A stretch of DNA of 64,000 nucleotides, from assembly GCF_015206895.1 (NCBI RefSeq), contig NZ_JADEXU010000010.1, positions 1-64,000 on the forward strand, in the 5' to 3' direction. Position numbers and translations under genes: made by a program. This DNA is from Nostoc sp. LEGE 12450. Its GTDB lineage: Bacteria > Cyanobacteriota > Cyanobacteriia > Cyanobacteriales > Nostocaceae. The first letter of the stretch is position 1. Every line of letters begins with the position of its first letter. Shown here piece after piece: positions 5,801-59,025 of the stretch. A model generated the notes under the pieces. It did not search any database, was not told the DNA's origin, and saw only the letters and a list, made by a program, of their open reading frames with translations.

Positions 5801-6205
5801 ATACACACATAGCAGATAGTTGATATTTCTGTCCCACAGGTAAATCATTCGTTAAGAAAACGAAAATATTTCCCAATTCCTAGCAAATCAATTTATAATG
5901 GAACTAATAGTTCGCAGTTAGCCCATCGCCTCTATTTAATGGCTTAGATATGTGGACATAAGTAATAAAACAACGTTTAGGAACAAGATGATACTCGTTT
6001 ACGTCGCAAGAATGTCTTGCCTCTGATTTGAGTAACGCACATTAGTAGGATACTAATTCTGAGGTGCGATCGAGATCGCACAGACTCCCATAAAAAGTAC
6101 TTTTATCTTCGGAATACGCTTATAGACAGGTTCAAAAACAGTCAGAAACAAACTCAGTAAATCACCGTCATTAAATACATCACACACACAAAGGAAAACC
6201 CTCTT
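5801..6205. other. Intergenic region upstream of a secreted-protein gene
   Basis: No gene is seen. A small hairpin lies at 6064-6081 (GTGCGAT, loop CGAG, ATCGCAC). AAGGAAAACCC about 8-15 bases before the ATG at 6206 supplies the likely ribosome site. The long upstream region probably holds the promoter, but no clear element could be assigned. Confidence 0.45.
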
Positions 6206-6919
6206 ATGGCTCACTCACATCAATGGAAATCTAGAACTGCTGCACTAATGGCAATAGCCGTTACCGCAAGCGTCGCTAGCCCCCTATTAAGCTTGGCTCC
6301 TGCCAATGCACAATATAGAATTGGGCAAGACAGAAATACTCAATATGGAAACGTTACCATTCCTTCTGGGGTTGCTTTTCCTGTCACCTACGAGAAAGAG
6401 ACTATTACTATTGCTCCTGGGGAAAGTAAATCTATAACCTTGAGAATAGCCAATGACATTATCGACAGAAATAGAAATGTCTTAATTCCTGCTGGAACTA
6501 AAGTAAATGGACGGCTAGAATCTGTTGACTTAGATAATTATTCAAGAAATACAGATGACAACCAAGGAAAAGGCGTGCGGTTTGTCGCTCAAGAATTAGA
6601 ATTTTCTAATGGTCAGCGTCAGTCGATTAATGCAACTTCTCGGACATACACCACAACTCAAAAAGTTTCACAAGGGCCTAGCACTGGTCAGGTTTTAACT
6701 GATGCAGCTATTGGTGGAGGTGCTGGTCTTTTAGGTTCACTAATTACTGGTAATAACAGAATTGATGATTTAAAACCTGTTATTGGTGCGGCTGCGGGTG
6801 CAGGTGCAAGTGTCCTATTACGTAAAAAAGAAGCAAATGTGTTTGTCATCAGACCCGCACAAGATTTAAGGCTCACACTGAATTCTAATTTGAATTTAGT
6901 ACCACGCTCACGCTACTAG
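6206..6919 (+). CDS. Secreted or periplasmic protein of unknown function
   Basis: This encodes 237 residues. A clear signal peptide (basic start, hydrophobic core, likely cleavage after APANA near residue 35) precedes a beta-rich region with VTIPSGVAFPVTY and VLIPAGTKVNGRLESV. A glycine- and alanine-rich stretch at about 175-210 (AAIGGGAGLLGSLITG and VIGAAAGAGASVLL) could be a glycine-zipper-like membrane or oligomerisation segment. The C-terminal sequence reads VFVIRPAQDLRLTLNSNL. It is probably an envelope protein, but no enzyme signature was seen. A palindromic terminator with HIP1-containing arms follows 40 bases after the stop. Confidence 0.75.
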   Translation: MAHSHQWKSRTAALMAIAVTASVASPLLSLAPANAQYRIGQDRNTQYGNVTIPSGVAFPVTYEKETITIAPGESKSITLRIANDIIDRNRNVLIPAGTKVNGRLESVDLDNYSRNTDDNQGKGVRFVAQELEFSNGQRQSINATSRTYTTTQKVSQGPSTGQVLTDAAIGGGAGLLGSLITGNNRIDDLKPVIGAAAGAGASVLLRKKEANVFVIRPAQDLRLTLNSNLNLVPRSRY

Positions 6920-53340: not shown

Positions 53341-54630
53341 CTACTCGCGTAATGGTGCTGCTAGCTCAAATTCCTTGCCACTCGCTTTTAATGTAAATGT
53401 GGGAGATGATTCTAGATATTTAGTAAAATTGGAACCTAACTTTAATTTTTTAATAATTGAATTAGGAGATTCTCCAGTTATTTTCCGGATCTCTGTACCT
53501 AGCTTAGACACAGATAATTTAGTTTGGGGAGAATTTATATGTATATCTTGAATAATTTTAAATAGTAATTTATCTAATATTTCTCCATTAGAAATTTTTG
53601 TAAAGTCTTCTTGTCGTTCTTTTTCTTGAATACATTCAGCCAATAAGTTATTTACAACAGGGATTATTTCCTCATTTTCTGGTTGCTTTGAATTATTTGG
53701 AATATTAATATTGCATTTTTCTTGAAATGAAGTTGCAACATCAACTAGACTGTTTAATCTAGCATTGATTGATTCCTGTTCAGTTTTAATTAATTCTTGA
53801 TTTGTATCAAGCATTTTCTCAAAAGATGGAACTTCTGTTGCCATTGTTAGGGAATAATCAGTTAATTTGCCAGTATTCCGATTTTCTATATGCAAATTTT
53901 GCCCTTGTCTACGTACCCAATAGACAATCAATCCCTGGTTTTGGAGTTCGTTACAAAGATGGTTTAAAATTCCATCGCTAGAACAGACTAATATTTCTTT
54001 AACTGTTGGATAAGAACGTAAGACACAAGCACCGAATGCAATCATTTTTGCATCAGCACTATTTTTACCTTCAGGCACATGGAAAAGTTGATAGCCACGG
54101 TTATATAGTTCAATATCTTGCTTACCAATATTAGGATTTCTCCAGTTAGCAAATGCAATTTTAACTTGGAGAGGAAATTTACAAATACTGGCTAAAAATA
54201 ATTCTGGATTAATATCTAGTTTTAAGTTTTCTGCATCCAAAAGGAGAAGAGAGATTCCTGTTTCTAACTTATGTCTAATTTCATTTTCTAGCTGAATTTT
54301 TAAGAGCAATTGGCTGAACGCAGAATATTCTAAGCAACCAGGCGATAATATAGTTTGCAGCAGTTCTTCAGGTAATTTAAAATTAAAAGAGCCAAGACCT
54401 TGCTCTGTGATTTTTTCTTCTGGCAGGTTTTTTACTAAAGAAAGTTCCGCCGCATCAGCTATAGATGCTTTCGTATTTCCATTGCTGTGAGCAAGCAAAT
54501 CCATTTCCAGGGAACAAGATAATGCAGGCTCAAAGAATTGTTTGCCACAATTTTTGCAGAGGTAATTCTGCTGGTCATTGCTACGACCATTTTTATAATA
54601 TGAAGTAGATTCGCACAGAGGACATTTCAT
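53341..54630 (-). CDS. Zinc-ribbon, NYN-type RNase and LOTUS-like fusion protein
   Basis: This encodes 429 residues from the ATG at 54630, where the family-like sequence begins; an upstream in-frame codon adds 34 residues of poor quality. Residues 3-33 are a zinc ribbon like the N-terminus of IS1-type InsA (CPLCESTSYYKNGR, then CKNCGKQFFEP). Residues about 125-265 resemble a NYN/PIN-fold RNase, with acidic residues in LLLLDAENL, KNSADAKMIAFG and VCSSDGILNHL. A charged helical segment precedes a C-terminal OST-HTH/LOTUS-like domain (about 355-420; KLSVSKLGTEIRKITGESPNSIIKKL, then FTKYLE). LOTUS-NYN proteins are RNA-binding nucleases; the zinc ribbon suggests nucleic-acid recognition. No partner gene is adjacent. 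Confidence 0.7.
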   Translation of the reverse strand: MKCPLCESTSYYKNGRSNDQQNYLCKNCGKQFFEPALSCSLEMDLLAHSNGNTKASIADAAELSLVKNLPEEKITEQGLGSFNFKLPEELLQTILSPGCLEYSAFSQLLLKIQLENEIRHKLETGISLLLLDAENLKLDINPELFLASICKFPLQVKIAFANWRNPNIGKQDIELYNRGYQLFHVPEGKNSADAKMIAFGACVLRSYPTVKEILVCSSDGILNHLCNELQNQGLIVYWVRRQGQNLHIENRNTGKLTDYSLTMATEVPSFEKMLDTNQELIKTEQESINARLNSLVDVATSFQEKCNINIPNNSKQPENEEIIPVVNNLLAECIQEKERQEDFTKISNGEILDKLLFKIIQDIHINSPQTKLSVSKLGTEIRKITGESPNSIIKKLKLGSNFTKYLESSPTFTLKASGKEFELAAPLRE

Positions 54631-54813
54631 CTTATGATTCAGGTGGTCTAGGCAGATACTTTTCTTTAAGTATATAGTATAAAAAAAGACTGTCAATGTC
54701 ACTCTGCATTGCCCAACACAAGAAGAACTCAAAGTAAGCAGAAATTAAATTCAACCTTAATTTTCGCCTGCACTATGTCATAGCCCTCTGAATAGTTGAT
54801 TTTAAGAAACGCT

Positions 54814-55593
54814 TCAATTAACGCGGGCGAAAACGTAGTCACGGGTGCGAGAATCTACGGGATTAGTAAAAATTTTATTTGTAGTACCAAATTCAACCAT
54901 TTGAGTAATACGATTTTCATTACTATGAAAGAAAGCCGTAAAATCCGATAGGCGAGTAACTTGATGCATATTGTGAGTAACAATCACAATTGTTAAATCA
55001 GAGCGCAAGTTATGGATCAAATGCTCAATTTTCATACTAGCAGCAGGATCAAGACCTGAACAAGGCTCATCCATCAACAAAACATTTGGTTTCACTGCTA
55101 AAGCCCGAGCAATACATAATCTTTGTTGTTGACCACCAGAAAGTTCTAAAGCAGACTTGTGCAGCTTATTTTTCACTTCATCCCAAAGTTCAGCAGCTTT
55201 GATGGCAGATTCAACAATCCCGTCTAATTCTACCTTCGGATGCCATCCAATCAATTTCACTCCATAAGCAACATTATCGTAAACACTCATAGGAAAAAGA
55301 TTTGGCTTGGGAAAAACCATACTAACTTGGCGACGTAAGCGATTGATATTGACCCGACGCTCATAAATACTCTGACCAAAAAACTCTACTTTTCCTTCAA
55401 CCTTAACTTCTCCTTCTAATTCGCTCATGCGATTTAACGATTTAATAAAAGTAGATTTGCCACAACCGCTAGAACCAATAATTGCCGTAATTTGGTTTTG
55501 GTAAATATCCATTGACACGCCTTCAACTATCTTTTGAGTGTCGTAATAGAAGCTGAAGTTTTTGACTCTGATGGCTGGAATTAGTTTACTCAT
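54814..55593 (-). CDS. pstB: Phosphate ABC transporter ATP-binding protein PstB, paralogue 2
   Basis: This encodes 259 residues. Walker [15 protein letters not shown], signature [15 protein letters not shown], Walker [14 protein letters not shown] and the switch His in IVTHNMHQ are intact. The Q-loop glutamine, QK in the other copy ([10 protein letters not shown]), is Pro here (MVFPKPNLFP), through a CAA to CCA-type change. About 540 bases separate it from the first pstB. It may pair with the same PstCA or assist in regulation; the Pro could affect coupling to the permease. Confidence 0.88.
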   Translation of the reverse strand: MSKLIPAIRVKNFSFYYDTQKIVEGVSMDIYQNQITAIIGSSGCGKSTFIKSLNRMSELEGEVKVEGKVEFFGQSIYERRVNINRLRRQVSMVFPKPNLFPMSVYDNVAYGVKLIGWHPKVELDGIVESAIKAAELWDEVKNKLHKSALELSGGQQQRLCIARALAVKPNVLLMDEPCSGLDPAASMKIEHLIHNLRSDLTIVIVTHNMHQVTRLSDFTAFFHSNENRITQMVEFGTTNKIFTNPVDSRTRDYVFARVN

Positions 55594-56134: not shown

Positions 56135-56914
56135 TTAACCGAAACGCCCTGAAATGTAGTCGCGGGTGCGAGGGTCTAGTGGATTGTTAAAGATTTGCTC
56201 TGTAGGACCAAATTCAATCATTTGACCAATGCGACTTTCGTCGGTGCTAAAGAAAGCCGTAAAATCAGAAACGCGGGCGGCTTGCTGCATATTATGGGTA
56301 ACGATCGCAATTGTCAACTCAGACTGTAAGCTATGAAGGAGTTCCTCAACTTTCATGGTGGCAATGGGGTCAAGAGCGGAGCAAGGCTCATCCATCAGCA
56401 GAACTTTCGGCTTGACTGCTAAAGCGCGGGCAATACATAATCTTTGTTGCTGACCACCAGAAAGCCCTAAAGCTGATTTATCGAGCTTATCTTTCACTTC
56501 ATCCCAAAGAGCAGCGCTGTGAAGTGCAGATTCAACAATTTCATCTAATTCTAATTTTGAATTCCTGCCTGCTATTCTCATACCGTAGGCAACATTTTCG
56601 TAAATGCTTATCGGAAAAGGATTCGGTTTTTGAAACACCATGCCAATTTGGCGGCGTAATCGGTTGATATTGACACGAGGAGCGTAAATATTCTGGCCAA
56701 AAAATTCTACATCTCCTTCAACTTTCACAGGCCCTTCTAATTCGCTAATGCGATTAAGAATTTTGATGAAGGTAGATTTACCACAACCACTAGGGCCAAT
56801 AATTGCGGTTACTTGTTTTTGATAAATATCTATTGATACCTTTTCAATTGCTTTTGTTGTGCCATAGTAAAAGCTGATATTTTTAACTTTGATAGCTGGA
56901 ATTAGGTTACTCAT
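56135..56914 (-). CDS. pstB: Phosphate ABC transporter ATP-binding protein PstB
   Basis: This encodes 259 residues with every ABC motif intact: Walker [16 protein letters not shown]-loop [10 protein letters not shown], signature [15 protein letters not shown], Walker [14 protein letters not shown] and switch His IVTHNMQQ. It energises phosphate import through PstCA. The order on the minus strand is pstS, pstC, pstA, this gene, then the second pstB. The gap to pstA is 199 bases and holds no obvious gene. Confidence 0.95.
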
Positions 56915-57113: not shown

Positions 57114-57995
57114 TCATTTTATTCTTCTCTGTCTAATAACTAAGCGAGAAATAATGCTGACAGATAAAATTAAGCCGAGTAAAACTATAGAAGTAGTCCA
57201 TACCAATTGGCTTTTTTCTGGATCGGGGTCGTTGTAGAGGTTAAAAATCAATACTGGTAAAGAAGCTGTTGGACTTAACAATCCTTCTGACCAATCTAGA
57301 CTAAATAAAGCGGTAAAAATTAAGGGTGCTGTTTCACCAGCAGCACGAGCTACAGCTAATAAAATACCTGTAGTAATTCCGGGGATTGCAGTAGTGACAA
57401 CAATGCGAAAAGTAGTTTGGAAGCGAGTTCCACCTAAAGCAGCAGAGGCGAGGCGTTGAGATGCAGGAATCAGTTTTAAGGACTCTTCTGTTGTCAGTAT
57501 AATCACAGGTAGCATAATCACGGCTAAAGCAAAACCACCTGCGATCGCACTAAATCCTTTAGTTACTAGAACTATTACGCCATAAGCGAATACACCTACA
57601 ACAATTGAAGGCACGCCTGTAAGAATGCTGCTGATAAAACGAACAAGACTAGCAATTGTGTTGCTTTGTCCAAATTCTGCCAAGAAAATTCCTGTCATAA
57701 TCCCTGTGGGAATGCTTAAAATAGCACCAATTATCACCATAATTATGGTTCCCAGGATGGCATTGCCAAAGCCATTATCAATCACTGCTTTGACAAACAT
57801 TTCTGATTTGAGTCCAGATATTCCCCGGATGAAAATTTCCCACAAAATCGATAACAAAGGAATGAGTGCTACACCTGTAAAACCAAAGGCGATCGCATTC
57901 ATTGCATAAGTAAATATTACTCGCTCTGTTGGCAGAGGACTGCATAATTCTGCCACCAAAGATTCATCCGTTTCTGACTGGATGTAAGCACTCAT
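57114..57995 (-). CDS. pstA: Phosphate ABC transporter permease PstA
   Basis: This encodes 293 residues with six membrane helices. The EAA-like loop AALGGTRFQTTFRIVVTTAIPGITTGILLAVARAAGE, together with GTIIMVIIGAILSIPTGIMTGIF, is characteristic of PstA. It forms the phosphate channel with PstC in the plasma membrane. It starts 52 bases after pstC on the same strand, fitting an operon. Confidence 0.94.
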   Translation of the reverse strand: MSAYIQSETDESLVAELCSPLPTERVIFTYAMNAIAFGFTGVALIPLLSILWEIFIRGISGLKSEMFVKAVIDNGFGNAILGTIIMVIIGAILSIPTGIMTGIFLAEFGQSNTIASLVRFISSILTGVPSIVVGVFAYGVIVLVTKGFSAIAGGFALAVIMLPVIILTTEESLKLIPASQRLASAALGGTRFQTTFRIVVTTAIPGITTGILLAVARAAGETAPLIFTALFSLDWSEGLLSPTASLPVLIFNLYNDPDPEKSQLVWTTSIVLLGLILSVSIISRLVIRQRRIK

Positions 57996-58047: not shown

Positions 58048-59025
58048 TCATTTATTTTTCCCACCAACCCACTTCACCAATAGCACAGCGCCAATATTTA
58101 CAGCTAGAGTCAACCCAAACAAAATCAATCCCAAATAGCTTAAAGCACCTATATGCAATCCCGGTTCAGCTTCAGCAAATTCATTAGCTAATACAGAGGG
58201 AATTGTATAAGCTGGATCGAGTAAAGAAGCGCTGATTTGAGCAGAGTTACCAATCACCATAGTGACGGCCATTGTTTCACCCAAAGCACGTCCTAAAGCA
58301 AGCATGGCTGCACTCACAATTCCAGAAAATCCCGATGGTAGCAAGACTCGAAAAATTGTTTCCCAACGAGTGCCACCTAAAGCCATAGATGCACTACGTA
58401 ATTCTTTAGGGATAGCCATTAAGACATCACGGCTAATTGCTGCCATTGTGGGCAAAATCATGATGGCTAGAATAACTCCAGCAGTCAACATATTAGTCCC
58501 AGAAGGATCTTCTGTATTAAACAGTGGTATCCATTTAAAAGTGCTGGCTAGCCACTTTTGTAGAGGCTCTAGAACTGGAATAAAGACAAAAATCGCCCAT
58601 AGACCAATAATTACACTGGGAATTGCTGCAATTAATTCCACAACAAATGCTAGGATGGTTCGCAGCGATGTCGGTAAGAAATTTTCACTCATGACTAAGG
58701 CTACTGCCATTCCCACCGGGACAGCAAATAAAATAGCGATCGCACTACTTACCAGAGTTCCATAAACATAGGGTAATGCACCAAAAATCTGATTACCTGT
58801 ATCCCAATCTTCTCCCCACAAAAACCCCAGTCCAAACTGCTTGATGGCTGGTAGAGCTTCTGAGAAAATTACCCAACTCATCAAAAATAGTACTGCAACA
58901 GTAATCACGGCAAAAAAGTATACTAGCCGTGTAAAACCTTGGTCAAACCAGAAGTTTGCACCACTGACACCTGTTAAATTGAAACTTTCATCGCCTAGAT
59001 TTGAATCATCTGATGAATTTGCCAT
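58048..59025 (-). CDS. pstC: Phosphate ABC transporter permease PstC
   Basis: This encodes 325 residues with six membrane helices after a cytoplasmic N-terminal extension of about 35 residues. ALGGTRWETIFRVLLPSGFSGIVSAAMLALGRALGETMAV is the EAA loop that contacts PstB, and FAVPVGMAVALVMSENFL lies before it. It pairs with PstA. The 177-base gap to pstS contains hairpins that may lower downstream expression. Confidence 0.94.
   Translation of the reverse strand: MANSSDDSNLGDESFNLTGVSGANFWFDQGFTRLVYFFAVITVAVLFLMSWVIFSEALPAIKQFGLGFLWGEDWDTGNQIFGALPYVYGTLVSSAIAILFAVPVGMAVALVMSENFLPTSLRTILAFVVELIAAIPSVIIGLWAIFVFIPVLEPLQKWLASTFKWIPLFNTEDPSGTNMLTAGVILAIMILPTMAAISRDVLMAIPKELRSASMALGGTRWETIFRVLLPSGFSGIVSAAMLALGRALGETMAVTMVIGNSAQISASLLDPAYTIPSVLANEFAEAEPGLHIGALSYLGLILFGLTLAVNIGAVLLVKWVGGKNK

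Follow-up and report, generated by a model that had tools for sequence, protein, structure and literature searches.

The protein of 429 amino acids encoded on the minus strand at positions 53341–54630 (stop codon included) of the analysed stretch of Nostoc DNA, 64,000 nucleotides long and hereafter called the window, is probably an endoribonuclease encoded on the chromosome and dependent on metal, of the bacterial kind in which LK-nuclease (NYN) is joined to OST-HTH; its IS1-type zinc ribbon would serve as an additional module for binding nucleic acid. We base this reading on domain content, predicted folds, conservation and gene order. What is new here is a ribbon-bearing branch of the family that stands apart from the ribbon-less paralogues, with one clade lacking all four ribbon cysteines. 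A search of the open-licence PMC literature found no report of this branch, of its cysteine loss or of its pst neighbourhood.

Gene and Domain Organization

The reading frame can be extended on the same strand to a TTG, giving 463 amino acids, while the ATG at 54630, giving 429, is aligned in 20/20 upstream regions (that of the window and 19 chosen by hand, each cut at the predicted start). A promoter-like site, TTGACA-16-TATACT, with 11/12 consensus matches (54669–54696, minus strand), lies between the two starts and was the top-scoring site in the scanned region; its TTGACA is conserved in 16 of the 20 upstream regions and missing from those of loci L060, L063, L065 and L068. The gene is present in a single copy in the 8.8 Mb Nostoc genome. 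Across the window, an Rfam scan at gathering scores found nothing and a tRNA search found no tRNA.

The full-length structure model is of modest confidence (pLDDT 69.9, pTM 0.40) and comprises a ribbon, an alpha/beta NYN core, a helix at residues 270–307, a winged helix at 349–424 and poorly predicted linkers. On the minus strand, the IS1/IS1595-type ribbon (residues 1–36, positions 54523–54630) is followed by a variable linker with helices (residues 37–120, 54271–54522; pLDDT below 50 at residues 37–85), the NYN (PIN-like) domain (121–262, 53845–54270), a long stretch modelled as the single helix 270–307, possibly a coiled coil (263–308, 53707–53844), and the LOTUS/OST-HTH winged helix (346–424, 53359–53595). 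The dN/dS values, summed over pairs of 24 Nostocales genes, were 0.148 for the ribbon, 0.158 for NYN, 0.242 for the coil and 0.292 for LOTUS, and 0.582, 0.445 (both within 37–120) and 0.801 (309–345) for the segments between the domains. The low values point to purifying selection and suggest that both the ribbon and LOTUS are functional.

The NYN Domain and Its Putative Active Site

The middle part of the protein matches the NYN family PF01936 above its cut-off (34.7 bits vs. 24.2, E 3e-8, residues 129–239), and 22 of the 23 relatives also gave an NYN match at E <= 1. Four aspartates, D132, D172, D193 and D219, are identical in all 45 aligned rows, the window included, as well as in the 23-row set, and are candidate metal ligands; D132, D193 and D219 belong to the motifs LDAEN, ADAK and SSDG, and D172 is the fourth invariant residue. 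According to VIA-align, the best solved fold for this part is the NYN domain of MARF1 (5yaa; Z 13.4, 3.2 A, 135 residues aligned), followed by VPA0982 (2qip, Z 11.6), on which the 2010 placement of DUF88 among the PIN/NYN nucleases was based (PMC2848206). When the full model was submitted to Foldseek, MARF1 also came first at E 0.0016, with RadA/RAD51 chains at nearly equal E-values and poor TM-scores; no match reached E 0.001 with either model, and at the sequence level neither the protein, its NYN part nor the 23-row profile found a relevant match among solved structures.

Human MARF1 NYN is described as cleaving single-stranded RNA in the presence of either Mn or Mg; changing its D426 and D427 strongly reduces the activity (PMC6294520). 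The mouse protein is reported to require four aspartates, D178, D215, D246 and D272 (PMC10226599), spaced by 37, 31 and 26 residues vs. 40, 21 and 26 in the window protein; this correspondence is drawn from the spacing and the fold match rather than from superposed coordinates. The preliminary description of this DNA had proposed an NYN/PIN-like nuclease, and the above-threshold PF01936 match, the predicted PIN/NYN fold and the four invariant aspartates bear it out: the middle region did not turn out to have a non-PIN fold and the homologues did not lack the acidic residues, the two outcomes named beforehand as speaking against it. Its wording "RNA-directed nuclease" was too strong, as no guide is known for the window protein and its nuclease activity is a prediction.

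A LOTUS-like C-terminal Domain

LOTUS is an RNA-binding type of domain, known also from animal germ-line proteins. In the whole window protein, OST-HTH (PF12872) was not listed even at E <= 10, and the C-terminal domain alone scored 13.2 bits (E 0.08), below the cut-off of 23.8. Over the 54 C-terminal domains of the family, however, OST-HTH was by far the commonest match (29/54 at E <= 0.1, best 6e-5, vs. 4/54 for the next family). Modelled alone (pLDDT 79), the domain was placed by VIA-align closest to LOTUS structures, with Tejas at Z 10.5 (1.8 A, 71 residues aligned), TDRD5 at 9.2 and TDRD7 at 9.0 and 8.5; Oskar (7.8) was tied with other winged helices near 7.7, and the bacterial OST-HTH protein NE0665 reached 7.2. 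The first 24 Foldseek rows were all Oskar, Tejas or TDRD7 chains (E 0.02–0.2). The LOTUS assignment of the preliminary description thus holds for the predicted fold, which best matches solved LOTUS structures, with the window sequence below the Pfam cut-off: the C-terminal domain is LOTUS-like by predicted fold and divergent in sequence, and we claim no Pfam membership for it.

DNA-binding winged helices come after LOTUS in the same fold list, and DNA binding is common among both zinc ribbons and winged helices. Both points would suit a regulator that binds RNA or DNA without catalysing anything, its NYN fold being retained as a platform for binding. We consider such a protein unlikely, given the invariance of the four aspartates in 45/45 rows and the strong purifying selection on NYN.

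For the endoribonuclease that we favour instead, activity, an RNA substrate, the roles of the ribbon and the helix, and a part in normal RNA turnover rather than in defence are what we infer. In this reading, NYN would cleave single-stranded RNA, with D132, D172, D193 and D219 forming a Mg/Mn site; choosing and holding the RNA would fall to the LOTUS domain and the ribbon, both on flexible linkers, and helix 270–307 may dimerise the protein.

Comparison with Known NYN–LOTUS Proteins

NYN and OST-HTH have been known as a bacterial pair since 2010 (Anantharaman et al. 2010, PMC2848206). The bacterial LK-nuclease (DUF88) plus OST-HTH proteins described there resemble the window protein in having an N-terminal NYN/PIN-like nuclease and one or two C-terminal OST-HTH domains, to which the window protein adds the IS1-type zinc ribbon; passages of that paper mention LK-nuclease with Zn-knuckles, and not an IS1-type ribbon together with OST-HTH. 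They also describe no conserved linkage of LK-nuclease plus OST-HTH to known RNA-processing systems such as CRISPR, and propose that bacterial NYN–LOTUS proteins are stand-alone RNA-degrading enzymes and the likely source of the eukaryotic ones (PMC2848206).

Human and mouse MARF1 share with the window protein the NYN endoribonuclease and LOTUS, and provide the best fold match of its NYN part, whereas the human protein has eight LOTUS domains, two RRMs and eukaryotic decapping factors as partners, with no zinc ribbon in the description given (PMC6294520). Arabidopsis DNE1, with NYN followed by two LOTUS domains, has the plan of the two-LOTUS relatives found here (our relatives have one or two LOTUS-like domains), but is described with NYN and LOTUS only, with no ribbon, and interacts with the decapping factor DCP1 (PMC10226599). 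An NYN gene of Nostoc punctiforme, Npun_R1332, which may or may not belong to the ribbon–NYN–LOTUS family, is reported as up more than 60-fold in an alkane-overproducing strain (PMC7660261).

The Zinc Ribbon as a Portable Module

The N-terminal four-cysteine segment (C3, C6, C25 and C28) matches the ribbon model NF050000 at 44.2 bits (cut-off 28, E 2e-11, residues 3–33), which confirms the InsA/IS1-like CxxC zinc ribbon proposed in the preliminary description, and the same model matches 39 of the 45 aligned family rows at E <= 0.001. The IS1 transposase model NF033558, which has a whole-protein threshold of 100 bits, gave 29 bits over the ribbon only. The likeness to the IS1 family (NF050000/InsA) thus covers the first 36 residues, behind which the window protein has an NYN–LOTUS body and no transposase domain.

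The ribbon was then surveyed in 39 related genomes, where 30 loci and 10 further stretches were inspected. The model exceeded its cut-off in an IS1 transposase (L176) and in tyrosine integrases (L201, 695–2287; L205, 947–2539; L207, 745–2505; all on the minus strand) with N-terminal four-cysteine ribbons, two of them in L207. It did so as well in a protein of a same-genus genome with sigma-70 regions 2 and 4 and an IS1-type ribbon after region 4 (L199, 949–1944, plus strand), and in two proteins with long acidic stretches and one ribbon towards the C-terminus (L171, 436–1695; L180, 802–1767; both plus strand). The IS1-type ribbon is a portable module. The fusion, which had been called unusual, is therefore less odd than supposed, and its presence alone is no pointer to transposons.

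Distribution and Descent of the Family

A survey of the class gave some match in 179/291 genomes, many of them to the ribbon alone; the NYN part is found at about 60 places, and ribbon and NYN share one frame in a patchy set of 8/291 genomes, the window's included, with one such copy per genome in each of the eight. A pattern scan of the genome collection yielded 263 relatives, and the best 80 of these, all with cyanobacterial names, were retained. The four-cysteine pattern is present in 67 of these 80. The other 13 are three ribbon-less paralogues (L106, L107 and L110), six Tychonema-like relatives without the cysteines, two interrupted genes with the ribbon part before the break (L040 and L061), one gene truncated at a contig end (L064) and one lacking the N-terminal part (L069). 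The last, from Nostoc favosum (about 5950–6855), lacks the first ~150 residues despite pst just upstream, through either a deletion or an assembly fault. In the Tychonema-like relatives (L097, L100, L101, L102, L104 and L109), an N-terminal stretch of similar length is kept and all four ribbon cysteines are lost; the gene is thus retained without them, and zinc is dispensable at least in those relatives.

The NYN tree was built from 54 rows out of 109 frames, with near-copies dropped and the most distant ribbon-less frames left out. All ribbon-type rows, together with the cysteine-less ones, fall on one side of a branch with a support of 97/96, so that a single gain or loss of the ribbon is sufficient. 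A separate capture of the ribbon by ribbon-less genes of Nostoc was considered, and the same grouping makes it unnecessary. Both types stand in tandem in L071, L079 and L081 (according to the tree) and in L075 and L080 (according to gene order), in reverse order in L070, and with pst genes between them in L123; gene order and the tree suggest vertical descent. The preliminary description had asked whether the ribbon is always accompanied by LOTUS and LOTUS by the ribbon; they are not, since the sister paralogues have LOTUS-like ends without a ribbon.

Little Evidence for a Role in Defence

The preliminary description had also suggested RNA surveillance or defence, a reading in which the transposon-type ribbon would be a clue to the target of the nuclease. 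Its resemblance to the N-termini of IS1-family transposases fits this, as do the fold matches of the NYN part to the CRISPR ancillary Can2 nucleases (Z 8.0–10.3), but these rank below MARF1 and VPA0982, and the ribbon is found on integrases and a sigma-like protein, too. PADLOC-DB returned a single weak match, Csn2 at E 0.005 over residues 251–310, and the PHROG search of the protein none; 51 pattern matches in viral contigs included no confirmed relative, and the plasmid records held no full copy, with two partial matches, one to residues 141–248 and one to the ribbon. The conserved promoter-like site, the ordered metabolic neighbourhood, the single ribbon-type NYN copy in each of the eight sample genomes, and the lack of a confirmed viral relative or a full plasmid copy all argue against defence, which we rejected as the best reading and regard as very improbable; the earlier suggestion was over-read. 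OST-HTH occurs in some proposed conflict systems, in a description that mentions it without NYN (PMC8195603).

A Recurrent pst Neighbourhood

In the window, the gene is preceded by a pst operon on the same minus strand with two different pstB genes, one directly upstream (54814–55593, NF010851, 560.7 bits) and one farther on (56135–56914, TIGR00972, 380.4 bits), followed by pstA (57114–57995, TIGR00974, 266.9 bits) and pstC (58048–59025, TIGR02138, 315.4 bits). Elsewhere, except for L086, pst labels denote similarity clusters. A pst-cluster gene is present in the flank analysed for 52 of the best 80 named loci, 29 of the 52 being Nostoc and one (L109) having a single ABC ATPase 5 kb away. The link is absent in Okeania (0/4), Trichodesmium (0/4), Hormoscilla (0/3), Anabaena, Trichormus and others; among the 80 loci, some flanks are cut short by contig ends. 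The gene order is ubiD, NYN gene, pstSCAB in Microcoleus, and ubiD, both paralogues and an inverted pst operon in Oscillatoria. Among loci L071–L110, ubiD is found in 37/40 and in most of these is transcribed divergently from the NYN gene; the loci lacking it are three Nostocales. In Nostocales generally, SDR, HPPD, HAD and CPP1-like genes follow.

In the Nostocales block of 42 loci (L031–L070, L072 and L076), pstB lies upstream in 35, and pstS or pstC/A is also present in 25. Eight loci (L034, L036, L037, L039, L047, L048, L054 and L061) have an orphan pstB immediately before the NYN gene (in L037 with another frame in between) and no further pst gene in the flank; its PstB-type ATPase may not serve a transporter. 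In L063, L065, L068, L070 and L072, where the pst operon is directed away from the NYN gene, the pstB adjoining this gene (or its tandem paralogue) is 75–79% identical to the adjacent pstB of the window and 65–68% to the other one. The lone pstB loci, together with these identities, indicate that the steady partner in Nostocales is one divergent pstB.

The class sample consisted of 56 regions of 55 genomes and the window, leaving aside G240, G128 and three weaker places; the ribbon match of L147 lies outside the NYN frame. Pst genes were near 3/8 ribbon-type loci vs. 1/49 ribbon-less ones (Fisher 0.0075, calculated with 1/48 ribbon-less and with kinship ignored). In nine genomes, 24 pstC copies score above the cut-off, so that by our estimate a given 16-kb stretch would meet one in ~0.7% of cases. 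In the PstC tree of 39 rows, 19 are adjacent copies (15 from hand-chosen named loci) and 20 are others. The adjacent copies belong to distant lineages, and the starred branches force five label changes: one lineage joins the window's copy with Nostoc and Microcoleus, another holds Oscillatoria, N. linckia FACHB-104, N. carneum, Calothrix and Tolypothrix, and the copy beside the ribbon-less locus of G155 takes yet another position. In G107 and G087, the pstC copy belonging to the window's lineage is found elsewhere in the genome and not beside the gene. The pattern suggests repeated placement, or exchange, of pst operons next to the NYN gene; part of it could stem from recombination between pst copies, which would mean fewer independent events.

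These observations allow a tentative refinement of the endoribonuclease reading in terms of phosphate physiology, namely that the enzyme might turn over pst mRNA or recycle RNA phosphate under shortage, perhaps together with the adjacent PstB-type ATPase. The frequency of pst flanks and of an upstream pstB, alone in eight loci, the retention of a similar pstB beside differently oriented operons, the other gene orders in Microcoleus and Oscillatoria, the ribbon-type vs. ribbon-less comparison and the forced changes in the PstC tree are all consistent with it, and so is a Pho-box-like pair with one mismatch just upstream of the gene (54731–54749). Against it stand the genera without the link, the distant pstC in G107 and G087, the gene's own promoter-like site, the dominance of Nostoc in the 52/80 figure, and the number of Pho-box-like pairs in the window, which is not enriched over chance (27 vs. 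20.2 +- 4.8, with 11 of 100 shuffles as high).

In its most specific and more doubtful form, the proposal is of a phosphate-linked RNA-decay module, in which the partner of the ribbon NYN–LOTUS endoribonuclease would be a divergent PstB-type ATPase in Nostocales and, among other filamentous cyanobacteria, pst operons distantly related to one another; its task would be the turnover of pst mRNA or the recycling of phosphate from RNA. If true, this would give a bacterial functional setting to the NYN–LOTUS kind of MARF1 and DNE1. With its added ribbon, a ribbon-less paralogue in tandem and a neighbour that often recurs, the cyanobacterial branch is a concrete testable setting, in which the relatives without the ribbon cysteines are natural controls.

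The pair at 54731–54749, one of the two best Pho-box-like pairs in the window, overlaps a second pair with two mismatches, and the stretch they form just upstream of the NYN gene (54731–54763) is fairly conserved in core Nostoc.
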